This document shows, piece by piece, positions 6,419-63,300 of a DNA stretch of 64,000 bases. The notes beneath the pieces were generated by a model. It made no database searches, was not told where the DNA came from, and saw only the letters and a list, made by a program, of their open reading frames with translations. A program made the translations under genes and the position numbers. Within the stretch, counting starts at the first letter, position 1. Every line of letters starts with the position of its first letter. The DNA comes from Hyalella azteca (taxonomy: Eukaryota > Arthropoda > Malacostraca > Amphipoda > Hyalellidae). Where the stretch lies: NCBI RefSeq assembly GCF_000764305.2, contig NW_025944007.1:1-64000 (forward strand), given 5' to 3'.

Positions 6419-9400
6419 GGCTGGCAAGCCAGCTGTCGGCCTGCATTTGGATGTGGCAAAAGGAGATCGCCTCATTCAGGTGAAATTTCTATACTACATT
6501 TGACGATAATTTTTCTGCCCCCAAAATGTATTTGCCTAATTTAGTTCTCTTTTAAAAAATAAATATATAATATGGCAATAGTACATTATTATCTGCAAAT
6601 TTAGCTCAGCAAATTTATGGGAAGTGAACAAAAGTGATGTAAATAACTGATCAATACCGTACAGAGATCAAAAATCTTTTGTTTTATTAATACCGTATAG
6701 ATTTAACATGAGGTACCTACATACTGGAACAAAACCTCAAGTTTTTGTTGAATTTTTAAAGTATTGATGTATTGCAGAAACTCATGGTGGACGAGAAGAA
6801 ATGCTATTTATTTGGACGCAACCCACAACTAAATGACTTCTGCATAGACCATGCCAGCTGCTCTCGTGTTCATGCTGTGCTTGTCTACCACAAGGTGTTG
6901 CAGAAAGCCTTCTTGGTTGACCTGGGCAGCAGTAAGTGAATGTTGAAAGTTAAGTATAGCACAATTTGTATATTAAAATGCTTATTATTAGAGATATTAC
7001 AGATCTTGTTTTTATTAGAAAACAAAGTCCTAAAGATTAAGAAAAGTCATAAGCTAGCTGGACATTATAATAATTGAAGGCTGTAGTGTTTTAAATCAGC
7101 TAGTAATTATGATCAAACTGCATGAAGTAGGTATTTACAATTTGAATAGCACTGTCAGCTGATGTAAACTCATTGAACAAAAACATTTGTATTTGTAAGA
7201 CGAATTTAAATGTGATTTTGTCACAAATTGACATCAATTGTTGAGTAACATAGACATATTAGTTTACTTCCCTTCAGTATAGCATTGATGCAAACAAATT
7301 CATATTTAACATTGTCCAGAAGACTTCGATAACTTTACACTCATTGGGCACTCATCTCCTAAAATTACATATGCTAAAAGTCATCATTTTGAATAATATA
7401 ATATCAAAAAGATCTTAATTACTTTAACATAACAATTCATTCATTTGCAAAATACTTACCATAAACATTACACACCTGAGCATTGATATGTTTTCGTAAC
7501 TTGAATCAATTTTAGAGTCAGGACTATAGCTTTACAACAATTTGAAATGGGAACTTTAGGTTCTCATTCTTGGATGTAACTCACAGTTTCTGAATTAAAA
7601 ATGTCTGTTAGTAGTGGTGTTTATGTCCCCTCAAGGGGGGACTTCCGGCAAGTGTCTGTGCTCGTCAGAAGTCCTACGGGATTTGTCGCTTCTAGGGGAT
7701 TGTTCCTGAGCATCCCACTGCTGAGCTCGTGCTGTCTGACTGCGGGCTTCAGTTGTGGGGTCAAGTTATTATGTTGGTAGGATTCCTTGCATTTCCCTTC
7801 TCTGTCTCTCTCAATCGGGCAGCCAACATCCTGTGTAAGCGCTGCCTCTTGTCCAAGTATATCTTAGTTTCTGTTGCCTGTCACCTCTCCCTTCTTGTCA
7901 CTTCATCTCTCTCTTAAAATGCTAATGCTGCAGCCTTTGCCCAGCTTCAGCGGGCTGGACAATTGAGACCTTCTGCTCCTTGTGGGTCATGAAAATTTTT
8001 TTATTTAAGAAACTTTCATTAATTGAGACTGTCCGCCTTGTTGGTGATGTTCATCTTGATTTTCGGGGCGAGATAGCTAAATAGCTGAAGCGTTAGTAAA
8101 CATGTGGCCACTAAACTAACTATCTTGGTATTCATGTGCAACTCACTGGAAGTTCTTTGGTAAGACGCAACTCAATGGCCACATTTCAGCATAAAAATTG
8201 TAAGCAAACATTTTGTACGAACCAAGCTTGATGCTCAAATGCATTTGCTAAGATTGATAACCCAGCATTTACACCAATATTTTTTACATTAAAATATATG
8301 CTGACTTTATTATTCATGCTTAGCTCACGGGACGTTCCTTGGCAAGATGCGCCTTGAAGGCCACAAGCCCACCCAGGTGCCACTGAACTCAACATTTCAC
8401 TTTGGGGCGTCGACGCGCATGTACACGCTGCGTGAGCGCCCTCACTCTGCCCCCAAGCCCGTCATGGAGGAGCTGGAGAAAATGCCCACTGAGGATGGGG
8501 ATGGTGCCCTGCTGGGTCTGCCTGAGACAGAGACAGAACTTGATGTGGGTGCTGCTGGGTTGAAATAAGAGAACAGTAATTTGCTCTGTTGTATTTTTTT
8601 AAGAATATGCTGATAATTAAGGTGCCTACTGGGTCTGCCTGAGACAGAGACAGAACTTAATGTGGGTGCTGCTGGGTTGGAATAAGAGAACAGTAATTTG
8701 CTCTGTTGTTGTATTTTCTTAAGAGAATATGCTGATATTTAAGGTGCCTTGCTAGGTCTGCCTGAGACAGAGACGAAAATTTATGTGGGTGCCATGCATC
8801 TCAATGAGGACAGTAATAAGCTCCGATTCTGTATTTTTTCTAAATTGTACTTAAATTAGTGCATTTCTTGAATTTACCTAATAACATCCCAACCACTGTT
8901 GATCTTTTTAGATGCTTACATTCATTTTGTTAAAAATAAACGGCTCAATTCATTTATCGAATTCATTTTACATTGCAGTCTTGCACAAAATTTAAAAATA
9001 TTACCTATGGTATTTCTAATCTTTAGGTGTTCAGAGATTAATGCGTTCATGACCCTACCAGCAAAGTCAGCGATAATTTATGAACATGATTGTAGAACTA
9101 AATTAATTTTTGAATCTGATTACATCTAACATACATCAATAGATTTCATTCCACCAACTATGTAACTTTGTGAATTCACAATCCATTGTAATTAAACTCC
9201 CTGCAATAGATGTTTCTCCACCAACTAAATAATTTTCTGCATTCAGAATTTAATATCATTTAACACCCACAATAGATTTATTTCCAGCGACTAAGTATGT
9301 AACTATGCGTGCAGAACCTGACGGAGTTCAACACGGCGCACAACAGACGCATCACAATGCTGGGCATAGACGACGAGGAGGCAAGACCCAGGAAGAGACA

Positions 9401-13541: not shown

Positions 13542-16500
13542 ATGTCGCTGAGAAGACTCCTCCTGGACGTTCGACAGTTGAGCGTGCAATATTCGGGTGA
13601 GTCTCTAATGGTGTTACTCTAGTCGGTAATGTATGGCCGTGGCATATTCAGTGCTCTTCATCTATAATTATTTATGGTTATCTTTTACTCTCTAATGGTA
13701 ACTCTAATTGTCAATCTCGTATACATTGTGTATTATTGATTATTTTATTTAGTTTGATTATTAATATATCCGTAAACAAAGGCGATATTAAATTTCCATT
13801 CATATGTTGGAAATTATGATAATGATTATTTAGGCACGCATTACCAGGCATGCCTAGTAATAATTCATTATTTATTGATGCTCTGACATACTAGATTTGA
13901 AAACTTAGGAAAGTTTAAAGCAATTTAAATGCATCATTCTGTGGCTGGGGCACCAAATAATGTACCATAAATGTAAGTCATCGAAAATTTTCCTTCGGAT
14001 TAAGAATTCATAGTAGATTAACTAGGAGGGAATATCACATAAATTCTATTACAACTCAAACTTTAAGTATCACGAATATTGAATAATCCGCTGTTCCTCT
14101 GGGCCAGTTCGCAGCTTCGGCAGTTCGGTAGCTGTGCGTCACGAGGCCAGCAGAGGCGGCGAGGCTGGCAAGACGTCGCTCAAGAAACCCAGCACTCCTG
14201 GTGGTGCGTGAGCCCAACACTCGTCCTGGCTATCTTATTACTCATATTAATAATTATTATGACAAATAGTATTGGTTAAACCGTACCTATCGACCTTAGC
14301 TCGATCAGTCGGTGCGTGAGCCCAACACTCGTCCTGGCTATCAAATTACTTATATTACTTATTATTATGACAAATAGTATTGGTTAAACCGTACCTATCG
14401 ACCTTAGCTCGATCAGTCGGTGCGTGAGCCCAACACTCATCCTGGCTATCAAATTACTTATATTAATTATTATTATGACAAATAGTATTGCTTAAACCGT
14501 ACCTATCGACCTTAACTCGGCCAGTCGGTGCGTGAGCCCAACACTCATCCTGGCTATCTTATTACTTATATTAATTATTATTATGACAAATAGTATTGGT
14601 TAAACCGTACCTATCGGCCTTGGCTCGATTATCTCAGACTTATTCATGAACAACTCCAATACCACTCGGACATTACAGTGCTGGAGTTGGTATCAATCTA
14701 TTTTGCAGTAATGGTATCTACGAGTTACACCTTACCAGCATTTGGAGAATAAACTCTAAACTAATTAGTGTCTGTCAATATTAAAGATAATTAGGTATTC
14801 ATACCAAAAATTGTTTCGTATTCATAATGATACACCAAATTTATTCATGGATAAAAATTCTGAGAGTAATTCCCGACGATATTTATACATCCATCAACTG
14901 TCATTCATGGTATTTCTATTCCAAAGCCTTGTAACCGGAGTGTTTGAATTATATCAGTGGTTCCCAAAGTGGGCGATATCGCCCCCCTAGGGGCGATGGA
15001 AAGATTTTGGGGGGCGGTAAGGAAGAAGAGGGCGGTAGGGGGGCGTAATCCGAAGTCAATGTCAGAAGTTCGAACGTTTGTTTGACGACACACACGTGCA
15101 CACATGACTCCCAGCGATGGTTTTTTTTCACCCAGATCTTTTTTTTAACCTCTCCTGGGTTTACGTCTCGAACAAATTAACGGCCGGACTCGCAGCCGGT
15201 CTCGCGGCCAGTTTCCAAATTCCATGATCAAGGAATATCTCTCAAACTAATGAACTTAACTCGATGAAACTTGGTTCACGTATTCATTATAGGACCTAAC
15301 AATAATGTTCTGCTAGTGAAAAGTGTTAGAATTTAGCCATCGTTTGTTTTTGCCATAGTTATATGGCAATACGGGCCGAAATTCACAGTGATCAAGTAAT
15401 TTCTTCCAAACTACTGAACAGATTCGAACGAAATTTTGAATTTACAGTCCTAACTACCAAACGGTGATGTTTAGCTCGTGAAATTTTTTCGATTGTGCCT
15501 TCGTTTGCGAGTTTTTTTTTTTCATTTCACCTTCATTCGTGATTTAAACAGCAATACGTGCTTAAATTTGCAGTAATCAAGAAATTTTTTCCAAACTACT
15601 GAACAGATTTGAACGAAACTTAGTATTTAAATACCTAACCTCAGCAACGGTGATGTGTAAAATTTTTCATCCTATATCGTTCCTCCTATATCTGTATAAC
15701 TCGTGAACGAAAGCAAAATAGAAAAATTTTCACGAGCTAAACATCACCGTTGAGAGGTTAGGAAATATACGGGCCGAGTATACGGAAGTGTGCAATCAAG
15801 AATGACGGGGAAAAAAAACTCGCAAACGAAGGTAAAATAAACAAAAAAATTTATAAGCTTAAAAATCACCGTTTGGTAGTAGGAATGTATATTCAAAATT
15901 TCGTTCAAAACTGTTCAATAGTTTGAAAGAAATTCCTTGATCACTGCGAATTTCTGCCTGTATCGCAATATACGCGTAACTCACAAATGAAGGTGAAATT
16001 AAAAAAAAAAGTCGAGCTAAACATCACCGTTAGGTTCTGATGAGTACATGTTTCAAGTTTCATAGAGCTGCGTTCATTAGTTTGAGAGATATTACTTGAT
16101 AATTGAATTTGGAGATTGGTCGTGAGACCGCTTACGAGTCCGGCCGTAAATTCGACCGAGACGTCCTAGGTTTCTAGTGCTGAAACAGTTAAAACAGCTG
16201 AAAAAACATATTGTTTCACTAAATGGGGTTCTATTTGTGTAATACACATTTGTGTTTAATATTTATATTTTAAAATTGCAGCGTACTAAATTTCAAGAAA
16301 GAGTCCTATGTCTGTGGGGGGCGTTAGAAATTCAGTAGGGAGCCCAAGGGGGCGCCGGCGCCAGCCTGAAAAAGGATGGGAACAACTGAATTATATAAAC
16401 CGCCCTTGTGTAAATGATTAATGCCATTTTCTACCTTACTTTGTAAATGGATATGCCCTTGTACAAATGATAAATGCCATTGTGTGCCTGACTTTGTCAA

Positions 16501-25100: not shown

Positions 25101-25814
25101 TTTTTTTCATTTGGAAAATTCAAACATCCAGCTATCCAACATGTCATGAGGGCATTGAAAAATCATGAATACAATAATATTGTAAAGTAGGCTAACAAAC
25201 ATGGCCTTTATATAGGTACATGAACAGTACTTACAGTTTTGGACTAGCATCCACCTTAATTCAAGTTCTTGCAATTTATTTAATAATAAAAACACTTGGA
25301 TGATTTCTACACAGATCAAAGTGAGGTCTTCCTTTTAAGGAAAATTCCTAGAAGAGAAATCAGTTAACTACTCACTCAAGTTTATAGTCAACGAAAATTA
25401 TACCCACTGGACCCAGTAATCATTCTAATATGCTAATTCATTCTGGATCATGCCTATGAGACCTAGCCAAAGCTGGGCAATGCTAATGACACCTAGCAAT
25501 AGCTGGGCAATGCTAATGAGACCTAGCAATAGCTGGGCCATGCTAATAAGACCTAGCCACAACTAGGCAGGCCATGCTAATGAGACTTAATTAGGCACAA
25601 TCCCAAATAGACTATGCTAATGAGATCTAGCCCCAACTAGACCACAGAAAATAAGTGCTGAGTTAGAGTATCACAATGATAATTACTGGGAATGGAAGGT
25701 TGCTGGGTCTAAGAGCTGTGCCTTGCGCTCCTCCAGTTGCTGGATCTTCCGAAGTTCCTTCTCAGTTACAACAGGTCCGAAGAATATCTCGTCTTCACTG
25801 TCACTGCTAATCAT
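19105..25814 (-). CDS. Ser/Thr-rich cell-cycle-type protein, GTSE1-like N-terminus, KEN box
   Basis: Five coding exons in transcript order: 25814-25687, 24846-20910, 20566-20456, 20151-20052, 19217-19105 (TAG). All phases agree, giving 1462 residues. The start ATG reads MISSDSEDEIFFGPVV; DEIFFGP resembles the N-terminal DEVFFGP motif of GTSE1 (G2 and S phase-expressed protein 1), and a short charged helix follows. Exon 2 is a huge Ser/Thr/Asp-rich exon with a basic, Pro-rich C-terminal third holding many SP/TP sites (KTPRKSLEK, TPRPALRSP, FRTPVRTVP), a possible EB1-binding SxIP site (SCIPRPVIP) and a helix before its donor. Exon 4 starts NNKENAAPKRPC, a KEN-box form used for APC/C degradation. 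Exon 2 could also end at its own TAA (20898). A mitotic microtubule role is inference from motifs. Confidence 0.78.
25440..25635. repeat. Minisatellite in intron 1 of the GTSE1-like gene
   Basis: Five to six imperfect copies of a unit near 30 bp containing CCTAGC.A.AGCTGGGC and ATGCTAATGA. On the gene's own strand the array starts about 50 nt after the exon 1 donor (exon end 25687), so it belongs with the donor-proximal repeats seen elsewhere in the window. Confidence 0.8.
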
Positions 25815-40800: not shown

Positions 40801-43684
40801 TTTCCACCAAAATTTCAATCTTTAATGCTTCTTCTAACTTGAAAATGAATGTTTGTTGCATTCGAAACGTCGTTAATAAAGAAAAACTACTTCCTGAAAC
40901 TTGCCTTTTTATCTACCGTCATCTGAAGAAAAGTTCCACTCCCTGATAATATAAACCAACGAATTCTCTGGTCATCAATCGCACGTGTGTACACAACTAT
41001 ATCTGTACACTAGTGATGATCGCATAAGAGCAGGTAGGTGAAAAGTACATATATATGCATTAACACAACTTGAATATAAAAATATTGAGTTCCCTTGTAC
41101 ATAGCCGGAGCACATTAGTATTACTGTCAAGTATACTTCCCAGCTTTTTGAAGGTAAATTTTTGACCACTTATATTCTCATTTCAAACTCATGTTCAATT
41201 TAAAGTAGCACATAATAGATGGAAGGAAGAATAGGGGAAATGAAAGCTAGCCCCTGGATGGCTGGATAGTAAATTTGGATAATACAAAATTTCCATTAGG
41301 GAAAAAATTAAAATTTATGAAGAAAACTTGATCCACATAGGTTTGCAATTAAAAGATATTTTTGCCCGACACCCAAGGCAGCATATATATCTTGCCTTGG
41401 GTGCCTTGTATACCTATATTATATACCTATACATAGGTACTCTACAATTCTACCTCAAAAATGAAACAAACACATTAATAACTGCAGAATAATAAACTAT
41501 TTCATGGATCTTGAACGCTTGTGACACAGGGAAATTTTTTAATAGTTTCTTTTAAACTATTATGTCATTTTTTTTGTAATTATTACAGAATTGATTGTGG
41601 TAAATAATGGGGAAAATTACATGTTGTGTGGAAAACATTTTTTGAAAATAAGTTTGAAAATAATCTGAGTTCTTGTCATTTGTGGCTCTGGCATGATAGC
41701 AGCAACAAAACATTCCACAACATACAATGGTGATTATTTAATTGATACAGTATTTAGAATTCAAAATAGCCCAAAACTAGATTCAAGAAACTTGGACCAA
41801 ATCTACATGTTGACAAGTACAATGCTTGACTTTTCAGAGGTTATAAAAGCTTGGTGTGACCGGCATGCCAGTTGATAACCTATATTTATAATATGGGCTA
41901 TTAGAAATTGCATGCATAATGATTTCAATATACTTTTTAATAAGCATTAAGTTACCTATATTTCATTTACAAGAAAATTTCAAACCTCTGATCATATATG
42001 CATGTAGTTTTTAAATATAATATATACGGTATGGTACCTAAATTATACATATTTGTTAATTTATATAATAATATAATATAGGTATATATAATAATTATAT
42101 TAATTTATATAATAAATATATAAATTTTGCAGCACACCTGTCGTTGAGGGCAATATTTGCGGCAATGTCTGGTCAAGTTACTCTTGTCGCAGGTGCTGTA
42201 GGGGCAGCGGGTGCAGCGCAAAGGCTTAGCTCCAATGTGGCGACGATTGTGCAGGTAGAATGACGAGCCATCATTGCATGCATATGAACACTTGGAACAT
42301 TGGTATCTGAAGGAAAAGAAATGATTTACTAAACACTTCAAGACATAGGTAACCAATACAATAAAATACATTTTGAATTTGCATTCATTCAACACTGACC
42401 ATTAAACCTTTTGCATCTATGATTAATGGTATGTGGATTACATGGCCACAAGATGCTTCTTCTCAGCATTATGCTAATCAACTAAAAACAATACCAAATA
42501 TAAAAAACATGAGTGAACATTCTTGCAAAGATTGAAGTAGAAAACACATTTAGTAATTTACAATGGATATCATAAGATTGAAAAGTAAAAAATTAAAATT
42601 CTTGATCATAATAATGCATCAATGTATTTTTAATATATGAGAAAAAAAATTTATTCATGGAATAGGGTTGAATTGAATAGAGAGTAGGGACAGATACCAC
42701 CAGATGACTGACATTTCTGTAAAGGAAGTACATATATGAAAACAATTAAATTCAGTTTAAAAATGGCAGAAAACCAAGTACAAGGTAATATGTATACCTA
42801 CAATGGCTATGCACTAGCAAGAACCATGTAACTGATGAAGTTGGTGTGCTGTAAAATGCAGTATGAAATTTATATACAGATAATTTGTATGACTAGTAAA
42901 TTTTGTTTAATTTGCTTAGCCCTTGGTTCCCAGTATAATTCTAGATGTATGCAGTGTTTCAGCCCTCTCTTTGCAGTTTGCACTATTATTGCTATAGGTT
43001 ACTCTTATCATAAGAATTTTACTTGTCACCTAACAAGAGCATTGAGGCTAAACAAAAACTATTAAACAAAGTTAATGATTTGGGAAAATATAATTTTTTT
43101 TCATTCAGATTTGTATTTTCTTTGAAATGGTCTCTAGAATACCACTATATAAAAAATTACATAATTTTAGTTCTATATTCATACTATTCCAAAAATTTAT
43201 TTCAAAGGATTGCATAAATTTCTATGAAATTTTTCATCATTTTTATAACAATTTGCAAATATCATACAGTGCTGAATAAATAAAATTCTGCTTACCTCTT
43301 CACAGGCAAATGGGAAAGTCGGTGCTTGGAGAGACTTTTGCGAGACTTTGTTTTAAAATTGCACAAGGTGCAAGGAAGCAGCTGGCTACCATGAAGGAGC
43401 TCATGGTCTTTAAGGTTTGCTGCGTAAGCAGTGCAAAAATTACACTGATTGCATTTGAACAATTTTCCTAGCCTATGTTTAGGAATATCACCTGGCTTAG
43501 TTTTATTACTGGAATGTCTTCTTAGAATATGTCTTTTTAGGATTGTCTTTATTTTGAAGCTTTCACCACAAGTATCACAGACAAAAGGCCTTTCAGTGGA
43601 GTGATGGGCTGATGTGTGACGGCTGAGACTCACACTGCTGGTGGTTTGGAAGTCACATGAACAACACATATATTTCTTCTTCAT
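34775..43684 (-). CDS. Multi-C2H2 zinc-finger protein, about 15 fingers
   Basis: Four coding exons in transcript order: 43684-43296, 42306-42138, 39643-36109, 35130-34775 (TGA). Phases agree, giving 1482 residues. The start MKKKYMCCSC follows an in-frame TGA three codons upstream. Fingers: four in exon 1 (e.g. FVCDTCGESFKIKTILKRH), two in exon 2 (the second, LRCTRCPYSTCDKSNLTRH, ends in Cys not His), six in exon 3 and three in exon 4. The spacing and the short CxxC-F/Y-x cores fit a nuclear DNA-binding regulator; target unknown. Exon 3 starts with some 480 residues of disordered Ser/Asn-rich sequence and contains three in-frame tandem repeats: a 16-residue duplication (38890-38998), Asn/Ser heptads (36430-36720) and SPRGAGV heptads (36180-36290). 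I cannot assign an orthologue. A 5' untranslated exon is likely, since an acceptor lies just before the ATG. Confidence 0.88.
36178..36290. repeat. In-frame 21-bp minisatellite (SPRGAGV)
   Basis: Four to five copies of a 21-bp unit (plus strand ACTCACACCCGCGCCCCTGGG) inside exon 3 of the zinc-finger gene, coding SPRGAGV repeats directly before finger 12 (VGCQLCDF). Copies are nearly identical, so copy number is likely polymorphic. Confidence 0.9.
36430..36725. repeat. In-frame 21-bp minisatellite (SAENNSN)
   Basis: About 14 copies of a 21-bp unit in exon 3 of the zinc-finger gene, coding Asn/Ser heptads such as SAENNSN. Copies nearest 36460-36540 are almost identical, those toward 36720 are diverged (KNHRNRV, ENYSSSV), so expansion appears directional. 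Frames on the other strand and frame are shadows. Confidence 0.9.
38888..38998. repeat. 48-bp in-frame duplication
   Basis: Two adjacent copies of a 48-bp segment within exon 3 of the zinc-finger gene, coding MENPETYPMSKSFPKS twice. The two are identical apart from the edges, pointing to a recent event. Confidence 0.9.
40460..40725 (-). pseudogene. Penelope-like element fragment, GIY-YIG endonuclease
   Basis: On the minus strand a frame reads CAQCASAYVGMTSRNFYTRL, with AYVG resembling the YxG half of a GIY-YIG nuclease, then a His-containing segment (VRVHAEQCNTS) and FKILASTCDVSDLQILESL, the usual order in the endonuclease tail of Penelope-like and related retroelements. A stop follows. It sits in the intron between exons 2 and 3 of the zinc-finger gene. 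A downstream phrase ATTCGAAACGTCGTTAATAA (plus strand near 40861) resembles sequences often found next to such elements. Fragment only. Confidence 0.65.
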
Positions 43685-49350: not shown

Positions 49351-49439
49351 TATATCAGTCCATGACGGCATTCGCTACAATTAGCCACGACTCGTCGTGA
49401 CGTTACGTTGTGACCTAAATGCTCGTGGCCTTCAATGCT

Positions 49440-49530: not shown

Positions 49531-49539
49531 GCCGGGAAG

Positions 49540-50005
49540 TATAGCGTTCTGTTGACACTTTTCAAGTCCTTATTAACATGCAAGGAAGGTGACGTTATTT
49601 TGATCAATGACTGTTGAGATAAGTGAGTCATACGATGTGCGGAAGCTTTGATCATATTATTGTGTTCGGAGAAATATAAAGGCTCAAGATTTTGTTGCAG
49701 GTGCGATATATTTTACGATTGTAAATTTACGATACCGAACATCAAGGGGCCTGCAGACGTTACAGCCTCTAATCGTAAGTAGGTGAATCATTTAAATTTT
49801 CGCATATATAGTGCATAGTGCTATGGAAATACGGGAAAATTAGGAGGCTTTCTAATTACGGTGGTTTCATGCATTGACACATTGATCTATAAGTATAAAT
49901 GTCGTAAAAAATAAAGAAGGGACAATACGGCAATTGTTTGTTCGTATTGAATTGAAGATTTATTGTTAAAATTAGGGGAAAAACTTGATTTTCATGAATT
50001 GAGAG
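49540..50005. other. Spacer between minisatellites, nothing recognised
   Basis: AT-rich sequence without coding signal or repeat structure that I can support. It separates the 20-bp arrays from the 21-bp array. Confidence 0.35.
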
Positions 50006-50009
50006 CTGC

Positions 50010-50508
50010 GTGGTGGTGGTGGTATGGTGCTGCGTGGTGATGGTATGGTGCTGCGTGGTGATGATATGGTGCTGCGTGGTGGTGGTATGGTGCTGCGTGG
50101 TGATGATATGGTGCTGCGTGGTGGTGGTATGGTGCTGCGTGGTGGTGGTATGGTGCTGCGTGGTGGTGGTATGGTGCTGCGTGGTGGTGATATGGTGCTG
50201 CGTGGTGGCGGTATGGTGCTGCGTGGTGGTGGTATGGTGCTGCGTGGTGGTGGTATGGTGCTGCGTGGTGGTGATATGGTGCTGCGTGGTGGTGATATGG
50301 TGCCGCGTGGTGATGATATGGTGCTGCGTGGTGGTGGTATGGTGCTGCGTGGTGATGATATGGTGCTGCGTGGTGGTGATATGGTGCCGCGTGGTGATGA
50401 TATGGTGCTGCGTGGTGGTGGTATGGTGCTGCGTGGTGATGATATGGTGCTGCGTGGTGATGATATGGTGCCGCGTGGTGATGATATGGTGCTGCGTGGT
50501 GGTGATAT
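50010..50508. repeat. 21-bp minisatellite (TATGGTGCTGCGTGGTGGTGG)
   Basis: About 23 copies of a 21-bp unit with GGT/GAT variants. Because 21 is a multiple of three, both strands give long open frames, but they encode only the repeat and have no flanking gene structure. Confidence 0.93.
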
Positions 50509-50597
50509 AAAGTTATACCTACTCTCCTTAATCAGATTTTGTTTTAGTTTTAAATTATAATTCATCTGAAGATCTGAATAGCGCGGTGGGCGACCGT

Positions 50598-50742
50598 CTG
50601 GGCAGGAGGCTAACTGGGCTGGAGGCTAACTGGGCTGGAGGCTAACTGGGCTGGAGGCTAACTGGATATGAGGCTAACTGGGCGGGAGGCTAACTGGGCG
50701 GGAGGCTAACTGGGCTGGAGGCTAACTGGGCTGGAGGCTAAC
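50598..50742. repeat. 16-bp minisatellite (GGCTGGAGGCTAACTG)
   Basis: About nine copies of a 16-bp unit. Confidence 0.9.
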
Positions 50743-50744
50743 TA

Positions 50745-50945
50745 AGCAGTCATCACACTTCACACGATGCCGTGATGCAGTCATCACACTTCAATCGATG
50801 CCGTGATGTAGTCATCACACTTCACACGATGCCGTGATGCAGTCATCACACTTCACACGATGCCGTGATGCAGTCATCACACTTCACACGATGCCGTGAT
50901 GCAGTCATCACACTTCAAACGATACCGTGATGCAGTCATCACATC
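50745..50945. repeat. 31-bp minisatellite (TGCAGTCATCACACTTCACA)
   Basis: Six to seven copies of a 31-bp unit ending CGATGCCGTGA. TGTAG/TGCAG and CAAT/CACA variants are scattered. Confidence 0.9.
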
Positions 50946-50949
50946 CATT

Positions 50950-51665
50950 AAAGAAATCCGTTGTGATGGCGGCAATATTCATCACAAGCACCGCCTTGTG
51001 GTGATAACATCACTGCCAGATAACAGGGGCCGCGTGTGTCACGCTGATAGCGCTTATCAGTTGAACTGAGCAGCGCCGCGGTCTTTGAAGATTTCGGTCC
51101 GGAAATTGATGCCTCGGAGCACAACATAACGTGAATAAATACTTAGTCGCATACCCATTAAATTAATTACTACTATTTTAAGCATACATCAATACTTTTC
51201 ATGCATATGTTAATACCCTATGATGAATAAGCACATCTGTGGGATATTTTCTGGTTATCAAATTTCCCACATAGTTCTGATTATTTTAGTTATAAATAAA
51301 TACTTCTGGTTCTTCTACGTCGTTTGTAACTTGCCTGTTCATGTCTTTCTGTTAGCGGTATTTAGGTTGTCGTATTAAGTTTTTTTATTAATTTATCCTG
51401 CATTTATTATTTGCCACAGTAAAATTAACTGAAGCACTGAGATATATCCAAGTTATCATGCATTTCACATTTGCCGCCATACAATTATTATAAGCATTGA
51501 TATACATATATCAAATCTTAGAACTATTAATTGCCTTCATTCCGACGTATGTGCTCATACGATCACATAATCACCTAAATAATGCTGGCAGGCTGCTTCC
51601 TATGGCATGTCTTCATTAATTAGCTTGTCTTTACTCCTCTTGTGAAGGATATTATCTTTGCCTTG
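50950..51665. other. Spacer between minisatellites, nothing recognised
   Basis: About 700 bp of AT-rich sequence with no gene, domain or repeat I can name. Confidence 0.4.
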
Positions 51666-51667
51666 CC

Positions 51668-51925
51668 TATCCAGATAACTTTTTGCCGATCCAGCTAACT
51701 TTTGTCTATGCAGCTAACTCTTTGCCTATCCAGCTAACTTTTTGCCTATCCCGCTAACTTTTTGCCTATGCAGCTAGCTCTTTACCTATCCAGCTAACTT
51801 TTTGCCTATCCAGCTAGCTCTTTACCTATCCAGCTAACTTTTTGCCTATCCAGCTAACTTTTTGCCTATCCAGCTAACTTTTTGCCCATCCAGCTAACTT
51901 TTTGCCTATCCAGCTAACTTTTTAC
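51668..51925. repeat. 20-bp minisatellite (CCTATCCAGCTAACTTTTTG)
   Basis: About 13 copies of a 20-bp unit, with CTAGCTC variants. Confidence 0.92.
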
Positions 51926-51957
51926 CATCTCTGGGATGTACCAAAAGTACTGAAGCG

Positions 51958-52511
51958 TTGACTACGTCGTTGGCTATGTCGTTGACTACGTCGTTAACTA
52001 TGTCGTTGACTACGTCGTTAACTATGTCGTTGACTACGTCGTTGACTACGTCGTTGACTACGTCGTTGACTACGTCGTTGACTATGTCGTTGACTACGTC
52101 GTTGACTACGTCGTTGACTATGTCGTTGACACCGTCGTTAACTATGTCGTTGACTATGTCGTTGACTACGTCGTTGACTATGTCGTTGACTACGTCGTTG
52201 ACTATGTCGTTGACTATGTCGTTAACTATGTCGTTGACAACGTCGTTGACTACGTCGTTGACTATGTCGTTGACACCGTCGTTAACTATGTCGTTGACTA
52301 TGTCGTTGACTACGTCGTTGACTATGTCGTTGACTACGTCGTTGACTATGTCGTTGACTATGTCGTTAACTATGTCGTTGACAACGTCGTTGACTACGTC
52401 GTTGACTATGTCGTTGACACCGTCGTTAACTATGTCGTTGACTATGTCGTTGACTACGTCGTTGACTATGTCGTTGACTACGTCGTTGACTATGTCGTTG
52501 ACTATGTCGTT
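51958..52511. repeat. 12-bp array with a 144-bp higher-order unit, running into the gap
   Basis: About 46 copies of TCGTTGACTACG and variants. A rarer ACACCGTCG variant recurs at 52131, 52275 and 52419, exactly 144 bp (12 units) apart, with the intervening variants in the same order. The array is cut by the assembly gap, so its true length is unknown. Confidence 0.92.
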
Positions 52512-52639
52512 NNNNNNNNNNNNNNNNNNNNNNNNNNNNNNNNNNNNNNNNNNNNNNNNNNNNNNNNNNNNNNNNNNNNNNNNNNNNNNNNNNNNNNNNN
52601 NNNNNNNNNNNNNNNNNNNNNNNNNNNNNNNNNNNNNNN
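52512..52639. other. Assembly gap (128 N)
   Basis: A run of N between two unrelated tandem arrays (12-bp units left, 22-bp units right). The real distance between them cannot be inferred. Confidence 0.99.
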
Positions 52640-52930
52640 TGCACACATCTGTCCTCCATCATGCACACATCTGTCCTCCATCATGCACACATCTGTCCTC
52701 CATCATGCACACATCTGTCCTCCATCATGCACACATCTGTCCTTCATCATGTACACATCTGTCCTCCATCATGCACACATCTGTCCCCCATCATGTACAC
52801 ATCTGTCTTTCATCTTGCACACATCTGTCCTCCATCCTGCACACATCTCTCCTCCATCTTGCACACATCTGTCCTCCATCCTGTACACATATGTCCTCCA
52901 TCCTGTACACATCTGTCCTCCATCGTGCAG
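52640..52930. repeat. 22-bp minisatellite (TGCACACATCTGTCCTCCAT)
   Basis: About 13 copies of a 22-bp unit, homogeneous at the gap side and diverged to the right. Confidence 0.92.
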
Positions 52931-53087
52931 TCCCAGTTTCGTAGGGCACGTCTAGCAGGTCGCAGAGACCGTCGAGCGTAAGAGGTATAAATGATTATGT
53001 GAAGAGATCACTTCACATAAGTGATAAAATGTCCTCGAGTTTTCACTCTAAATGCAGTAAAGTGGTCTGCGGAGTGTCACATTCCTC

Positions 53088-53230
53088 ATTGGTGACACAG
53101 AGTGTCTGTGATTGGCTGGATTGCGGGTAAAATGAACGATGAGTGTGAGTGCGGGCGATAAGACAATCGCTCGAGGAGTCGGGTGAACCAAAGGTATATA
53201 AGGCGGCGCGGGCGCGGCTTCTGTCACTCG
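53088..53230 (+). promoter_or_regulatory. Candidate core promoter: two inverted CCAAT boxes and a TATA box
   Basis: Inverted CCAAT motifs occur at about 53089 (ATTGGTG) and 53112 (GATTGGC), followed by TATATAAG at 53195-53202 and a CpG-rich stretch. Transcription would begin near 53225. The nearest plus-strand gene is the VWA7-like gene, whose first coding exon starts just after an acceptor-like AG (54311-54312), which fits a non-coding first exon starting here. This link is inference. Confidence 0.55.
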
Positions 53231-53512
53231 CGGTCACGCGGCGGACGTGGCGTGTTGCGTGTTGTGTGTCTGTTCTGGTGCCCTGGGTCGCGGGTTGTTC
53301 CCTAACGCAAGTGTTAGTTGTCATATAATCCTAAGCGGTGGAAACAGCTAATGTGTTGCGATCACATTTTTGGTTTACATTTCCAGGAATGATTCCTGCT
53401 ATTAAAAGTCACCAAAAGTTATTGATGTCATTGATTCAGATACCAATCTCTCCCAAAACCTGAATTTTATTAGAATATTTGTTATTCACTCCGACTGTGC
53501 ATTGTCAGTTGG

Positions 53513-53998
53513 TGTGGGCTGAATATACGAGCTGAATATTCGTGCTGAATGTACGTACTGAATGTACGAGCTGAATATACGTGCGTGCTGAATGTACGTG
53601 CTGAATACACGAGCTGAATATACGAGCTGAATATACGTGCATGCTGAATATACGAGCTGAATATACGAGCTGAATATACGTGCTGAATGTACGGGCTGAA
53701 TGTACGGGCTGAATGTACGGGCTGAATGTACGGGCTGAATATACGAGCTGAATATACGTGCTGAATATACGTGCTGAATATATGAGCTGAATATACGTGC
53801 TGAATATACGTGCTGAATATACGTGCTGAATATACGTGCTGAATGTACGGGCTGAATGTACGGGCTGAATGTACGGGCTAAATATACGAGCTGAATATAC
53901 GTGCTGAATGTACGGGCTGAGTATACGATCAGAATGCACTAGCTGAATATACGAGCTAAATATACGAGCTGAATATACGAGCTGAATATACGATATTA
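53513..53998. repeat. 12-bp minisatellite (GCTGAATATACG)
   Basis: About 40 copies of a 12-bp unit with TATACGT, TGTACGG and TATACGA variants in runs. The long minus-strand frame here is only the repeat read through. Confidence 0.92.
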
Positions 53999-54149
53999 TA
54001 CCGGTTTGTCGAACTCTCACTCTCCCTCTCCCCCCCTCCTGTGCAGCACGTAATCACATCACCAGGCCGCTAACAATCACAAAGACTCTGCCAATATTCT
54101 TGCATCGCAGCCAATAACGGCGCCAATACCGAGACTTAGGTAAACTTTT

Positions 54150-54306
54150 ATATACGAGACAGGTTACTCACTAGATACGAGACAGGTTACTCACTAGATA
54201 CGAGACAGGTTACTCACTAGATACGAGACAGGTTACTCACTAGATACGAGGCAGGTTACTCACTAGATACGAGGCAGGTTACTCACTAGATACGAGGCAG
54301 GCTACT
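54150..54306. repeat. 23-bp minisatellite (ATACGAGACAGGTTACTCAC)
   Basis: Seven copies of a 23-bp unit ending about 20 bp before the start codon of the VWA7-like gene. Confidence 0.9.
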
Positions 54307-54323: not shown

Positions 54324-57300
54324 ATGCTGGTGAAGCTAGTGCTGCTGGCCGCCATGGTGGTGGGGGGCGCGTGGGGGTTCCTGGGGCGCGGGGGTTTGCT
54401 GGAGGGCTATGGGGATGTGCTGGGGGTTGTGTGCCCCCAATTTGACCCCCGCACCCCCGCCTGGGACCACGTGGCCATCACGACGGAGGGGGCGACCCGT
54501 GCCCTCGTGGAGCTCTTCCAGGTGGGTCACCCTGACCCTTATATTGACCTTGACACTTACCCTTACCTTAACCCTCAACCTTACAATAACCCTGACCCTT
54601 ATATTGACCCTGACACTCACTCTGAATCCTTACAATGACCTTGACACTCACTCTGACCCTCACACTAACCCTGACCCTTATATTAACCCTAACACTCACT
54701 CTGACCTTTACAAGGTTCCTTATCTTGACCCTGACCCTAACACTAACCCTGACCCTAAAACTGACCCTGACGCGTAAGCAAATTCAAACCCTGAGGCAGA
54801 CTCTAAGTTCGAACTTAGGACCGTTAGGTCTTGAGACCCTATAAGGCTTGAGATTCCTAGCTTAATCCCATCCCAAACCCGGACCCTGAGATGGTCTCAT
54901 CCTGTGTGAGTCTTGCAACCAGCGTTCCATTGCCTTGAGAAGCTCTGCTAGTGTCTGTCTCCGACGGACTAGGCCCCGTCTCCGAAGGACTAGCCTCTAT
55001 CTCCGACGGACTAGTCTCTGTCAACAACAGACTAGTCTTTGTCTCCTAAGATCACTAGTGGATTCAGAAATTTTTTTATTCAGTCGCGGCAATTCTCACA
55101 AGCATTTCTCTCGAAATGCTGCGAACTTTTAGCCTGTTCTCCTCTGGGCATGACGTTCACACACCTGTGGTTGTTTTTTGCAAAGTTTTGTGTAAATTAT
55201 TTCTGCATATTTATCACGAAATTCTAATCTAAAGTCGATTTCAGCGAGTTTGTTTCTAATCCGTTCTTCGATAGTGCAAGTTAACTCCTGCCAGTCCCTC
55301 TTGGGGTTTAGACCTGGGCTGGGTATCAGTTCCAGTTGCCGTATCCACCCTCACCAGGCAGTGGTCGGACAGTGAAGTCTCTTCAACCCGAACGTCAACC
55401 ACCATTCTTTCATTATTAGTAAAGAAGAGATCGAGGATATTGTGTTTCATTTTCGGCTACCGTATTTGCAGACCGAGCAAGTGTTCCGCAGCAAACTTCA
55501 CTAGTTAGGCTGCCTGACTTCTGTCGAGGTCATTAACCTCGAAACCATCTGGGCTTGTCCAACGGTTACACTCCCCAAGTCCAGCCATATTAGTTTCTAT
55601 CTCCTTGAAAGTCTTACTTTTTTTATTTTTATATTATTATAAATTATTCTCTGGGCAAGCAGGTGGTCTTTAGACTATGGCTACGCAAAGGTCGAGTGTT
55701 TATTGTACCCGGCCTCTACCCGCTTACCTAAACCTCTGCACGCTTTACCTAACCCCTGCACGTTGTACCCAACCCCTGCACGATGTACTCAACCCCTGCA
55801 CGTTGTACTCAACCCCTGCAAAAACCGTTAGCTCAAATAAAAACTTTGGCCATCGTTGGTTTAGGACAAGAATCGTGTATCTACCTGTAAAATAATTAAT
55901 CGAATAGCACATATGATAACTATTATATAATTATAAATTTCCAATTTACATAATAACATAATATGTCATATTAGTACTTAGCAATAAAAATATGGTCACC
56001 ATGATTGATGACGACACTGAGAACCTGCTGCCCTCAGGAGGAGTCTGCCTCGTATGTCCACCGCCGGGGCATGACGCTGACGGAGGCCTACCAGGCCTAC
56101 AGCGGCGACCAGGCCTGCCCCCGTCGACTGCTGCTCGCCTTGCAGGACATCACCGACGCCGCCACCGCCACCCACGAGGGGGACATGGGGGCCACACCCA
56201 TGTGAGAAGGGAGGGGGAAAATGAAGCTGGTGGGAGTTTTGAGTTGCCACCCAAGCGGGGGAAATGGGGGCCACACCCATGTGAGAAGGGAGGGGGAAAA
56301 TGAAGCTGGTGAGAGTTTTGGGTTGTCACCCACGCGGGGGACATAGGGTCTATGCCCATGTGAGAAGGGAGGGGGAAGTGAAGGGGGTCTGGTGGGACTT
56401 CTGAGTTGCCACCCATGAGGGGGATTTAGGGGCTATGCCCATGTGAAGGTGAAGGGGAAGAGGGGGAATGTCAAGATTATGGGAGGTGTTCTGTGTGAAA
56501 TATGAGCTTTTGGAAGGCCGCTCAGTTTCGGGGTGAGTGGCAGCAGACCAGGTCTGCGGGTGTCGCTCTCTGCAGCTTCTGATTGGCTGCCTCACTCACC
56601 CGTCCCCCAATACGTCCTTTCACTCACCCGTCCCCAATACGTCCCCTCACTCACCCGTCCCCTAGAGTTTTATCACCCGTCCCCTCACCCGGAGCACCAG
56701 AGTTTTATCATCCCATTTGATTGGGTATATTCAAGCAATATGTGCGTTTGAAAGAAGGGTACGAAAATAAAACATTTTTAGCGAAATTATCAATGCGAAA
56801 TGAAGATAGAAAAGGTCTATAATTTTCTTTCTGAATGAGTTATAATATACGCCTAACTTACGTCTCTGTTTAACATCGTGCAGTCTACAACGGCAAAGAT
56901 TACGTTTAAGTTTTTAGCATCAAACACTGCATCACCCATTGATACACCCATCAAACACTGCATCACCCTTTGATATACCCATCAAACACTGCATCACCCT
57001 TTGATACACCCATCAAACACTGCATCACCCATTGATACACCCATCAAACACTGCATCACCCTTTGATACACCCATCAAACACTGCATCACCCATTGATAC
57101 ACCCAATAAACACTGCATCATTCAATGGTCTCTTCACCATTATCAGGCACAACTCCAACCACTGCCCCCACCAGGCATCACCACCATTACATCTCTCACC
57201 TCTGACACACACCACCACCACCCCTCACCACCTCAGCAGCACCACCACCACTCACCCTCCTCCCTATCAACACCGCTCACCCTCCTCCCTACCAACACCA

Positions 57301-60300
57301 CTCACCCCCCTCACCCCCACCACCACTCACCTCCCTCACCCACTCCTCACCACTCACCCCCCTCACCCACTCCTCACCACTCACCCCTCACCCCCACTCA
57401 CCCCCCTCCCCCCACCAGGTACAACTTCAACAACGAGCAGTTCTTAGCGGCGCAGGCGGTGCTGGAGGCGCGGTGGGGGCGGCTGGTGGGCGCCGTGCAG
57501 GCGCGGGACATGGCGGCGGCCCGCCTGCTGCTGGGCACGTCCCTGGCCGCCCTGCAGGACTTCTATGCCCACTCCAACTGGGTCGAGCTGGGCAGGAGCT
57601 CCATCCTGGAGGACCTGGGTCAGTCCAGTGCTAGGGTGGACATATATGCACCATACCCTGTCTGGGTGAGGGAAAATAGGCTCTATACCTTGTCTGGGTG
57701 GTAGTCTGGGCATCACACCGAGTCTGGGTTGGGGTCTGGGCATCACACTGAGTCTGGGGTAGTCTGGGCATCATACACTGTCGGGTTGGTAGTCTGGACA
57801 TCACACTGAGTCTGAGGTAGTCTGGGCATCATACACTGTCGGGTTGGTAGTCTGGGCATCACACTGAGTCTGGGGTAGTCTGGGCATCATACACTGTCGG
57901 GTTGGTAGTCTGGGCATCACACTGAGTCTGGGGTAGTCTGGGCATCATACACTGTCGGGTTGGTAGTCTGGGCATCACACTGAGTCTGGGGTAGTCTGGG
58001 CATCATACACTGTCGGGTTGGTAGTCTGGGCATCACACTGAGTCTGGGGTAGTCTGGGCATCATACACTGTCGGGTTGGTAGTCTGGGCATCACACTGAG
58101 TCTGGGGTAGTCTGGGCATCATACACTGTCGGGTTGGTAGTCTGGGCATCACACTGAGTCTGGGGTAGTCTGGGCATCATACACTGTCGGGTTGGTAGTC
58201 TGGGCATCACACTGAGTCTGGGGTAGTCTGGGCATCATACACTGTCGGGTTGGTAGTCTGGGCATCACACTGAGTCTGGGGTAGTCTGGGCATCATACAC
58301 TGTCGGGTTGGTAGTCTGGGCATCACACTGAGTCTGGGGTAGTCTGGGCATCATACACTGTCGGGTTGGTAGTCTGGGCATCACACTGAGTCTGGGGTAG
58401 TCTGGGCATCATACACTGTCGGGTTGGTAGTCTGGGCATCACACTGAGTCTGGGGTAGTCTGGGCATCATACACTGTCGGGTTGGTAGTCTGGGCATCAC
58501 ACTGAGTCTGGGGTAGTCTGGGCATCATACACTGTCGGGTTGGTAGTCTGGGCATCACACTGAGTCTGGGGTAGTCTGGGCATCATACACTGTCGGGTTG
58601 GTAGTCTGGGCATCACACTGAGTCTGGGGTAGTCTGGGCATCATACACTGTCGGGTTGGTAGTCTGGGCATCACACTGAGTCTGGGGTAGTCTGGGCATC
58701 ATACACTGTCGGGTTGGTAGTCTGGGCATCACACTGAGTCTGGGGTAGTCTGGGCATCATACACTGTCGGGTTGGTAGTCTGGGCATCACACTGAGTCTG
58801 GGGTAGTCTGGGCATCATACACTGTCGGGTTGGTAGTCTGGGCATCACACTGAGTCTGGGGTAGTCTGGGCATCATACACTGTCGGGTTGGTAGTCTGGG
58901 CATCACACTGAGTCTGGGGTAGTCTGGGCATCATACACTGTCGGGTTGGTAGTCTGGGCATCACACTGAGTCTGGGGTAGTCTGGGCATCATACACTGTC
59001 GGGTTGGTAGTCTGGGCATCACACTGAGTCTGGGGTAGTCTGGGCATCATACACTGTCGGGTTGGTAGTCTGGGCATCACACTGAGTCTGGGGTAGTCTG
59101 GGCATCATACACTGTCGGGTTGGTAGTCTGGGCATCACACTGAGTCTGGGGTAGTCTGGGCATCATACACTGTCGGGTTGGTAGTCTGGGCATCACACTG
59201 AGTCTGGGGTAGTCTGGGCATCATACACTGTCGGGTTGGTAGTCTGGGCATCACACTGAGTCTGGGGTAGTCTGGGCATCATACACTGTCGGGTTGGTAG
59301 TCTGGGCATCACACTGAGTCTGGGGTAGTCTGGGCATCATACACTGTCGGGTTGGTAGTCTGGGCATCACACTGAGTCTGGGGTAGTCTGGGCATCATAC
59401 ACTGTCGGGTTGGTAGTCTGGGCATCACACTGAGTCTGGGGTAGTCTGGGCATCATACACTGTCGGGTTGGTAGTCTGGGCATCACACTGAGTCTGGGGT
59501 AGTCTGGGCATCATACACTGTCGGGTTGGTAGTCTGGGCATCACACTGAGTCTGGGGTAGTCTGGGCATCATACACTGTCGGGTTGGTAGTCTGGGCATC
59601 ACACTGAGTCTGGGGTAGTCTGGGCATCATACACTGTCGGGTTGGTAGTCTGGGCATCACACTGAGTCTGGGGTAGTCTGGGCATCATACACTGTCGGGT
59701 TGGTAGTCTGGGCATCACACTGAGTCTGGGGTAGTCTGGGCATCATACACTGTCGGGTTGGTAGTCTGGGCATCACACTGAGTCTGGGGTAGTCTGGGCA
59801 TCATACACTGTCGGGTTGGTAGTCTGGGCATCACACTGAGTCTGGGGTAGTCTGGGCATCATACACTGTCGGGTTGGTAGTCTGGGCATCACACTGAGTC
59901 TGGGGTAGTCTGGGCATCATACACTGTCGGGTTGGTAGTCTGGGCATCACACTGAGTCTGGGGTAGTCTGGGCATCATACACTGTCGGGTTGGTAGTCTG
60001 GGCATCACACTGAGTCTGGGGTAGTCTGGGCATCATACACTGTCGGGTTGGTAGTCTGGGCATCACACCTACTGTGTCTGGGGTAGTCTGGGTGCTCAAT
60101 ATCACACAAGGCAGAGGGATGCTATGACCCGTGTCATGTGTGGGGAGTAAAGGACCTGTTATTAACTTATTCCCCAGGGCTGCCAGGGGGGAAGCTCCCT
60201 GAGGTGGCGCGCCCTGAGGACGAGGCCTGCGTCAGCTGCCCTCAGGAGAAGACCTCGGTGAGTGATCCCCATGCTTACTTCCCCAGCGTTCCTCCTCAAG

Positions 60301-63300
60301 CCTTGCTTCCCCAGCCTTACTTCCCTAGGCTTGACCTTTTGCTTCACGTCCACGGCCTTTAATTCTGTACTTAAATTCATAGCCTTATTTTCTATTCACA
60401 GCCTCAACAGCCAATATTTGGACCTAATTTATGCAGACTTATTACTGCAGGGTTGTCCACCAGACTTATTACTGCAGGGTTGTCCCCCAGACTTATTACT
60501 GCAGGGTTGTCCACAGACTAATTGATGCAGGGTTGTCCACAGACTAATTGATGCAGGGTTGTCCACCAGACTTATTACTGCAGGGTTGTCCACCAGACTA
60601 ATTAATGCAGGGTTGTCCACAGACTAATTGATGCAGGGTTGTCCACCAGACTTATTACTGCAGGGTTGTCCACCAGACTAATTAATGCAGGGTTGTCCAC
60701 AGACTAATTGATGCAGGGTTGTCCACCAGACTTATTACTGCAGGGTTGTCCACCAGACTAATTAATGCAGGGTTGTCCACAGACTAATTGATGCAGGGTT
60801 GTCCACCAGACTTATTACTGCAGGGTTGTCCACCAGACTAATTACTTCAGGGTTTTCGGCCAGGCTAATTACTGCAGCATTTTACTCAGACTTTGATTTT
60901 AGTGCCGAAATAATAGTTTTTTTGTGATGACCACTTGTGATGACACACATGTGATGACCTACTTATGATGACCTACTTATGATGACCCACTCATGATGAC
61001 CCACTCATGATGACCCACTCATGATGACCCATTTATGATGACCCACTCATGATGACCCACTTGTAATGACCCACTTGTGATGACAGGCAGGATGCACCAC
61101 TCGCCTCGCCGACTCCCTCTTGACCGCGGGTTTGCTAACGTCAGACTACGTCGCTGCCACAGGACTCACGCCACTGACAGGTGTGTGGCATGACCGTGTG
61201 GCGTGAGCATATACACGAGGCCAATAGTACGGTAACATGACCGTGTGGCGTGCGCCTATACACGAGGACAATAGTACGGCAAATTGCGGCATTTAGTCTC
61301 TGAATGTTTTACTGGCCGCCATTACTTTCCCCGTTACCCCGACACGGCAGGGTGGCCCAGTGGTTACAGTTCAGAGTACCAAGATTGGCGCAGAGAGGCG
61401 CGGGTTTGATCCCAGCTCTGTGCGCCAGTTTCTGGTCAGACTTGGCAAGGAGGCCGGGCGGTTAAGCACAGCAGAATTGTAGCAGTGCGTTGCGAGTTCG
61501 AGACCGCAAAATGCTGTGAATGATCTGCGATGTTAAGAATCGGCAACAAGCCTACGGCCTAATAAAAGCTAAAACCGCTATTATTATTATTATTATTATT
61601 ATTATTGATATTATTATTATTATTATCATTATTATTGTTATTTTTATTATTAGTATTATTATTATAATTATTATTATAATAATCACGTTTTGGATTACGT
61701 CTGGCAGGCAAGTGCGTGCTGCCACCCCGCCAGGATGGGGGAGATGCGCGAGTGGCAGGAGGCATCGGTAAGGACCTGCCATCAGCCTGCTTCAGCCCCC
61801 GCCCCGACCTGCACGACCGCGCCGCGCAGCTCGCCGCGCAGGTCGCCTTAATAGGACAAACTTTTATTTAAATAATTAATTAATTTAATGATGAAATAAT
61901 TTAAGCATATATTATAAATGAGGGATAAATTGGTATCAGATTGATATAAGATGGTAAATGCTGGAATAATATAATAGTGTCTTGTTAACGTTGAGCAAAA
62001 TTAATGTGTAGAAATATGATGTTTTTGATAAAGAAAATATTCAAGGTTTTAAATGAATCGAATTCATGCTGAGTCAAACATAGCTGGCAATGTTAATCAC
62101 AAATCTCACGTTGTTGGAGAAGTGAGTCACAGAAGTCACTACCCAAACAAAATTTAGAGTCGCCCCAGCTTCTGGTAATCCAAATCAGAAGCTGCCGCGT
62201 CTGTAAATTTTTACTGAGTAAACACCCTGCCGCCCGGTGCAGGCTACGACCCACTACCTGACGGTGCTGCGGCATGCGGTTGGTAACGACCTCTTCAGCC
62301 AGCTGATGGCCACCACACCGCGGCCAGCGCTGGCCATCGTGGCAGATGGACGGGCGGACTACACTCAAGTTGTCCTCAACATCCTGCAGAGCGGACAATG
62401 GACACGGCAGAACAACAAGGAGCCTGAGGAATATATCCTTGTGACCTACTCCGAGACACGTGAGTCATACCTCCTTGTGACCTACTCCGAGACACGTGAG
62501 TCATACCTCCTTGCGACCTACTCCGACACACGTGAGTCACACCTCCTTGTGACCTACTCCGACACACGTGAGTCATACCTCCTTGTGACCTACTCCGACA
62601 CACGTGAGTCATACCTCCTTGTGACCTACTCCGACACACGTGAGTCATACCTCCTTGTGACCTACTCCGACACACGTGAGTCATACCTCCTTGTGACCTA
62701 CTCCGACACACGTGAGTCATACCTCCTAGGGACCCGGTAATACCTTCCGGTATTCATAAATGTTTTTAAACATTTAAATAAATAAATTGAATTTAAATTG
62801 AAATAATAAATAAAATGATAAGTTGAGAAACAATAGGAAATATATTATGAAGTAAATTATAGTGCATATGTGCGAGGTATATATATTATTGTATTGTTGA
62901 GAAATATATATATTAATGTTGCAGTGCGGGGGGGCGGCGTGCTGCGGTCGACGTCGCGGGGGGCGCTCGTGGAGGCCCTCAAGACGGCCGCCCTCGACCC
63001 CTCGCCTGCGCTGAGGGTGGGTGAGGGGAGGGGTGGTGGTGGTGGTAATGGTGGTCGTGGTGATGGTTGTGCGGTGATGATTGTGGTGATGAAGTTTGTG
63101 ATGATGGTTATTTTGACAGTCCTAGTGATGACGGAAGGGTTGGTGCATCTGGTGACATGCAACAGGCGGTGAGCCTGCCGCTGGTGAGGCTGCCAGCGGT
63201 GAAAAGTTTTGTGTGTATCAGTGGGAGGTCTGGTAGCCTAGATACCACACAACTCTAACTTCCCCATTCCTACTGACTAATTAATTGACTAATTAATTAC

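Follow-up and report, generated by a model that had tools for sequence, protein, structure and literature searches.

The stretch of DNA analysed here, referred to as the window, comprises the first 64,000 bases of one contig in the 519-Mb, 4890-contig assembly of the amphipod Hyalella azteca, and its main subject is a set of tandem repeat arrays whose unit includes the end of an exon together with the 5' splice site (donor). We built exon models by hand for five genes with 22 complete introns. Two of them lie on the minus strand, a GTSE1-like gene with 4 introns and a zinc-finger gene with 3; the others are a PPP1R8-like gene (5 introns), an SDHAF4-like gene (2) and VWA7 (8 in the window). The Pfam domains FHA, DUF1674, VWA7_N and zinc-finger were identified in the window genes; the long exon of the GTSE1-like gene had no Pfam match at E 0.001, and the name of this gene, taken over from the initial annotation, is tentative. 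Scans with Rfam and for tRNA genes gave no matches. The hand-spliced VWA7 model matches the Hyalella azteca NCBI protein P0001 (100% identity over all 444 aa), and P0001 (772 aa) maps exactly onto 15 exons in the window and the adjoining 7.5 kb, using the donor of the first copy at each array. The PPP1R8 exon 3/4 junction is consistent with NIPP1 in PDB 3v4y, as the alignment of chain 3v4y_B spans the junction, and the SDHAF4 exon 2/3 junction is consistent with the Trinorchestia protein P0007. Tandem Repeats Finder (TRF) at score 40 yielded 63 merged arrays in the window (11,997 bp; 18.7%), and 16 stretches on other contigs contained about 8% array sequence at score 50 (10,116 of 126,845 non-N bases).

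The initial annotation had reported that in four introns of three genes the repeat unit contains both the exon end and the donor. The arrays concerned (TRF periods 117, 108, 79 and 36) and the PPP1R8 exon that precedes the first of them are as follows:

8324..8544, + strand: PPP1R8-like exon 3, ending in ..LPETETELD, with donor GTGGGT at 8545 (gene model and NIPP1 PDB 3v4y_B)
8529..8771, + strand: PPP1R8 intron 3 donor-spanning array, period 117 (TRF, alignment)
14203..14629, + strand: SDHAF4-like intron 2 array, period 108, 4 copies, starting at the donor GTGCGTGAG (TRF; junction by P0007)
56167..56446, + strand: VWA7 exon 2/intron 2 donor-spanning array, period 79, 3.5 copies, 35 nt of exon (TRF, exact exon map)
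62436..62734, + strand: VWA7 exon 7/intron 7 donor-spanning array, period 36, 8.3 copies, 24 nt of exon (TRF, exact exon map)

The end of PPP1R8 exon 3 and its donor occur three times, at spacings of 117 and 123 bp (donors at +117 and +240), with about 30 nt of exon copied and a degenerate third copy extending to about 8867. VWA7 shows four copies of the exon 2 end, 79-83 bp apart, and eight of the exon 7 end, 36 bp apart. For these three arrays the description holds; the four SDHAF4 copies, 108 bp apart, include the donor and only 1 nt of exon, and there it does not. The donor GT is retained in all located copies of PPP1R8 (3/3), VWA7 exon 2 (4/4), VWA7 exon 7 (8/8) and SDHAF4 (4/4). The VWA7 intron 7 array is in-frame open throughout (open reading frame 62222-62740), and each extra donor would add 12 residues.

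A sample outside the window, meant to escape the selection made by the initial annotation, was drawn from CCT loci, myosin loci, VWA7 paralogues and the rest of VWA7. From the 61 Cpn60/CCT matches listed on 11 contigs, 8 contigs were taken, with 37 donors (33 resolved automatically, 4 by hand) and 36 acceptors (33 and 3); three poor-fit introns, nine gaps between anchors and one unresolved pair were dropped. Two myosin loci of 90 matches contributed six introns, after one poor fit, two gaps and two unresolved pairs were dropped. The map of the minus-strand VWA7 copy on contig C346 ends at residue 174 of the 306 in P0002, and de novo exon finding in 16 further stretches (L001-L016) gave few usable exons, the arrays of L001 standing outside the 82 donors and 81 acceptors counted below. 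Hand-resolved introns had been examined because arrays lay there, and the counts called strict therefore omit them together with exon 4 of the plus-strand C346 copy (C346plus). The labels CCT4, CCT5 and CCT6 are tentative, by resemblance to human sequences.

Donor-spanning arrays extend beyond the window and recur in unrelated genes elsewhere in the genome. VWA7 intron 11 has a further one (30-bp unit, 14.9 copies, 19 nt of exon; C3832:66403-66860, L028). The CCT contig C684 carries two, one with a 21-bp unit repeating GGCACCACCAAG/GTCAGTTCT and the other starting 4 nt before the donor; the CCT genes on C1428 and C2089 (the latter CCT4-like) each have one, both hand-resolved; and on the random contig L001 a 128-bp array repeats the end of an exon together with its donor, the exon being acyl-CoA synthetase-like as named by eye. 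The donor GT is kept in 4/4 located copies (of about 15) in VWA7 intron 11, in 3/4 in C1428 and in 2/3 located copies in C684; in C2089 and L001 the check for GT retention located no further donor copy. Additional VWA7-like loci lie on C346 (two, on opposite strands), C108 and C2872 (one each) and C727 (a short match). The C346 paralogues have introns at the donor homologous to that of exon 2 (both copies) and of exon 7 (plus-strand copy), and arrays are absent at these donors, the minus-strand map having broken before exon 7. Because the paralogues are without arrays at the homologous donors, the VWA7 exon 2 and exon 7 arrays look young and non-conserved. An origin of these VWA7 introns by tandem duplication was rejected, the introns being already present in the paralogues.

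Copying of exon boundaries was measured with a 30-nt probe (24 nt of exon and 6 nt of intron) aligned to at most 600 nt of the adjoining intron, and a copy was scored at 25 or more, just over the largest null scores (23 for donors, 24 for acceptors). At this threshold 9 of 82 donors and 2 of 81 acceptors have copies; at a cut-off of 30 the numbers are 8 and 1. The donor matches are PPP1R8 exon 3, VWA7 exons 2, 7 and 11, C684-7, C684-9, C1428, C2089 and C346plus-4, and the acceptor matches are PPP1R8 intron 2 and C2089; the SDHAF4 and C684-10 arrays, with 1 and 4 nt of exon, score below the threshold and are outside the nine. Random intron positions have a copy in 114/942 cases forward and 117/942 backward, and exon interiors in 1/342 and 2/342. 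Donors are thus indistinguishable from random intron positions (9/82 vs 114/942, Fisher P 0.86) and acceptors are depleted (2/81 vs 117/942, P 0.004). With expectations matched by intron, 9.9 donor copies were expected and 9 observed, against 10.2 expected and 2 observed for acceptors (P 0.0001); outside the window, donors gave 6/60 (expected 6.1) and acceptors 1/59 (expected 6.3, P 0.002). These tests, like those of the excess past donors given further on, assume independent positions, and the positions are not independent. Donors are copied at an intron-like rate, an about fivefold depletion is seen at acceptors, and exons mostly escape copying; the difference between donors and acceptors thus arises because acceptors are depleted and not because donors are in excess. 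The process favouring duplication of exon ends that the initial annotation had proposed finds no support in this intron-like donor rate.

It had also been stated that acceptors are not duplicated together with coding sequence, which is refuted by three cases, one of them in the window:

8129..8183, + strand: diverged copy of the PPP1R8 exon 3 acceptor region and coding start (8311-8365) (probe score, alignment)

This copy in intron 2 is identical at 41/55 positions, scores 28 with the probe against a largest acceptor null of 24, and has AA in place of the acceptor AG. By eye, about four copies of an ATTACAG/ATGGACAACACTG-like sequence lie upstream of the true exon start in C2089, and several CAG/GTGTGCAGCG-like copies upstream of an exon in L001.

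We consider it probable that the arrays are ordinary minisatellites in a minisatellite-rich genome, unequally tolerated according to position, with no special duplication process. Slippage or unequal exchange would duplicate short segments at any position, and selection would purge the duplications that fall within coding exons. It would also purge most acceptor-spanning duplications, since splicing tends to use the upstream 3' splice site, which would insert sequence into the mRNA. Donor-spanning duplications would be near-neutral: the first donor would stay with its exon and be used, and the later copies (exon end, spare donor and intron start) would end up inside the intron and leave the mRNA unchanged. 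At VWA7 introns 2, 7 and 11, P0001 uses the donors of the first copies. In human exon-definition minigenes carrying the same 5' splice site twice at a distance of 52 nt, the upstream site was exclusively chosen, and of human alternative 3' sites the upstream one was favoured, according to the part of PMC9225289 cited here. This proximity rule predicts that the first among equal donors is used and that upstream acceptors do harm, and the donor/acceptor polarity would follow from it as observed; the cited part deals with human splicing, not with repeats or genome evolution. The rule is a tendency, which would extend to amphipod splicing by analogy, and the duplication mechanism, the selection and the validity of human splice-choice rules in this amphipod are what we infer.

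Several observations weigh against this reading, some of which also bear on rival explanations. The direct comparison of donors with acceptors reaches only P 0.057, the strict set outside the window has 3/55 donors vs 1/55 acceptors with copies, and among the nine donor matches C346plus exon 4 is a doubtful exon and C684-7 lies at the threshold. The acceptor-spanning arrays in C2089 and L001 have an intact AG, and the presumed filter therefore leaks. In the same part of PMC9225289, about 60% of all human alternative 5' sites favour the downstream one; under exon definition, the upstream one is preferred when the 5' sites are of nearly equal strength, and the preference for upstream 3' sites is weakened. 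Where introns are short (intron definition), the human preference is for the downstream donor. To these are added the distances of arrays from donors, a raised copy rate 30-160 nt past donors and the divergence pattern of the inner copies. Distances were measured from the first array on the gene strand (TRF score of at least 50) and compared with random placement. Arrays occur in 13 of the 22 window introns, and in 9 of these 13 the first array lies at most 20 nt from the donor (null mean 2.6; 0/4000 placements reach this number); on the acceptor side 2/13 lie within 20 nt, and TRF on the plus strand gives 9/13 for donors and 3/13 for acceptors. Beside the donor-spanning arrays, the window has these arrays near donors and acceptors:

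54527..54771, + strand: VWA7 intron 1 array, 5 nt past the donor (exon map)
57206..57405, + strand: VWA7 intron 2 acceptor-side array, 13 nt from the acceptor (exon map)
57700..60092, + strand: VWA7 intron 3 array, period 58, 41 copies (exon map)
60266..60333, + strand: VWA7 intron 4 weak array, 8 nt past the donor (exon map)
60925..61084, + strand: VWA7 intron 4 acceptor-side array, 2 nt from the acceptor (exon map)
61189..61279, + strand: VWA7 intron 5 array, 8 nt past the donor (exon map)
63033..63109, + strand: VWA7 intron 8 weak array, 16 nt past the donor (TRF, exon map)
63628..63702, + strand: VWA7 intron 9 array, 36 nt past the donor, the intron ending beyond the window (exon map)
25456..25557, - strand: GTSE1-like intron 1 array, 129 nt past the donor (TRF)
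42058..42127, - strand: zinc-finger gene intron 2 AT-rich array, 10 nt past the donor (TRF)

The VWA7 intron 3 array fills its intron, 81 nt from the donor and 85 nt from the acceptor. The statement that arrays start 8-80 nt past the donor in at least five further introns is corrected by TRF to 5, 81, 8 and 16 nt for VWA7 introns 1, 3, 5 and 8 and to 129 nt for GTSE1-like intron 1, where degenerate copies begin by eye about 45 nt past the donor.

Such proximity might indicate that donors are true duplication hotspots, where transcription or splicing promotes tandem duplication just past exon ends (through R-loops, RNA bound by U1, or short GT..GT direct repeats in the donor), which we regard as unlikely. 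The nine window introns favour it, as do the CCT and myosin introns (5/9 near the donor, null 1.0) and the excess of copies downstream of donors: at 30 nt past donors 17/77 positions have copies vs 114/942 in intron interiors (P 0.02) and vs 8/77 at 30 nt before acceptors (P 0.08), and from 30 to 160 nt past donors copies occur at 20-22% of positions vs 12% in the interior. Against it, the donor boundaries themselves are copied no more often than the rest of the intron, and the proximity, clear in the window, shrinks outside: without the hand-resolved introns and the doubtful exon, CCT and myosin give 3/7 (null 0.8, P 0.03), and all outside introns together 5/17 at donors (null 2.3, P 0.06) and 3/17 at acceptors (P 0.39). 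In the VWA7 paralogues, 6 of the 8 introns with arrays have them closer to the acceptor, although the two copies share ancestry. The G-rich or R-loop composition suggested as the cause fails a simple proxy, since the G-C skew of nine donor-spanning units is mixed (+0.36, +0.40, -0.26, -0.16, +0.41, -0.17, 0, 0 and +0.32; four positive, three negative, two zero), and was rejected; skew is a compositional proxy only. There is weak evidence for a donor-side excess of arrays that tolerance does not account for, and it is strongest in the gene from which the observation started. A combined version, in which donor-proximal tandem duplication is raised and the donor copies are retained as spares, so that the genome would permanently have stacked alternative 5' splice sites at its disposal, appears unlikely as well.

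That selection keeps the duplicated donors, because they serve U1 as reserve or decoy sites and so safeguard exon definition, or because they offer alternative exon ends in frame, seems more doubtful still. It would be in line with the retention of GT in every copy located in PPP1R8, VWA7 exons 2 and 7 and SDHAF4, with the open frame of the VWA7 intron 7 array, and with the divergence of the exon-end and donor parts of inner copies. Of the five arrays with enough cells for this comparison, four show less divergence in these parts than elsewhere in the unit, e.g., 5/40 vs 31/69 in PPP1R8 and 30/129 vs 39/100 pairwise cells in VWA7 exon 2; in C1428 the trend is reversed (15/70 vs 4/75), and for VWA7 intron 11 just 3 cells fall outside these parts. 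The low divergence could, however, come from homogenisation, and copy positions were picked by the best boundary match, which biases towards low boundary divergence. The homologous paralogue donors examined carry no arrays, and in both PPP1R8 and SDHAF4 read-through encounters a stop codon inside the first copy. Unit lengths divisible by 3 were rejected as a sign of selection on the reading frame, being found in 6/8 spanning arrays but also in 21/42 other intronic arrays. Least probable of all, and very hard to credit, is that short-read scaffolding made or inflated the arrays. It could draw on a 128-N assembly gap (52512-52639) flanked by two arrays and on contig C310, where two matches to the CCT profile range 54-114 stand about 2.9 kb from each other (27699-27884 and 30576-30761; 54.3 and 54.2 bits), which may be an exon duplication or an assembly artefact. 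It is opposed by the divergence between copies within an array, up to 45% (31/69), and by the presence of arrays on independent contigs; copy numbers are uncertain.

The view that no single mobile sequence explains the arrays was confirmed: the units differ, each copies its own exon end, and a 185-base query that ends with the PPP1R8 exon 3 donor, from the only array so searched, matched nothing in the 519-Mb genome but the exon itself and its own copy. An introner or mobile intron element was rejected on these grounds, the units compared sharing no common sequence family and the genome-wide search covering the PPP1R8 array. Human loci offer closer parallels. The variable number tandem repeat (VNTR) in ABCA7 intron 18, as described in the part of PMC5954066 cited here, has a 25-bp unit that opens with the exon 18 donor GT and directly flanks the exon; as in the Hyalella arrays, the donor lies within the unit and later copies carry donors. 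The ABCA7 copies begin at the donor, whereas three window arrays also copy part of the exon, 24 and 35 nt of it in VWA7 and about 30 nt in PPP1R8, and for ABCA7 length variation, retention of one unit via a second donor and disease association are reported, whereas the Hyalella arrays are known from sequence alone. The 31-bp VNTR of human CBS, c.1444_1467+7(16_21), comprises by its name 24 exon and 7 intron nt, like VWA7 exon 7, but is a single human locus in what we cite of PMC2630376. Two features of this type are found here: the 5' splice site of a real exon lies within the unit (VWA7 exons 2, 7 and 11; PPP1R8), and later copies retain donor sequence. Intron gain by tandem duplication, in the portion of PMC4974935 used here, likewise duplicates splice signals in tandem, and the fission yeast cases cited there involve several copies of a 24-bp segment; there the new intron arises within an exon, whereas the Hyalella introns pre-exist and are also present in VWA7 paralogues.

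Other repeats were also noted in the window. The region upstream of VWA7 (47465-54306) is minisatellite-dense, with 14 merged arrays in 6.8 kb. A 22-bp array at 34633-34807 shares 33 nt with the 3' end of the zinc-finger coding sequence, and more coding arrays are located at 36191-36275, 36441-36704 and 38900-38998. Open frames at 28992-31192 (plus strand) resemble a non-LTR (long terminal repeat) retrotransposon with endonuclease and reverse transcriptase, recognised by eye only.

The arrangement of these arrays is already of a known kind, and what the present analysis adds is a measurement of how tolerance differs among donors, acceptors, introns and exons. A search by title and abstract opening, with partial coverage of the literature, found no paper with this donor/acceptor polarity. 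An apparent duplication hotspot becomes a measurable rule, by which in this sample duplications at donors occur about as often as those within introns, and duplications of acceptors and exons are rare. The rule is testable in any annotated genome, and it gives an expectation of where minisatellites would be located in genes, of VNTRs of the ABCA7 and CBS type on donors, and of stacked alternative donors.

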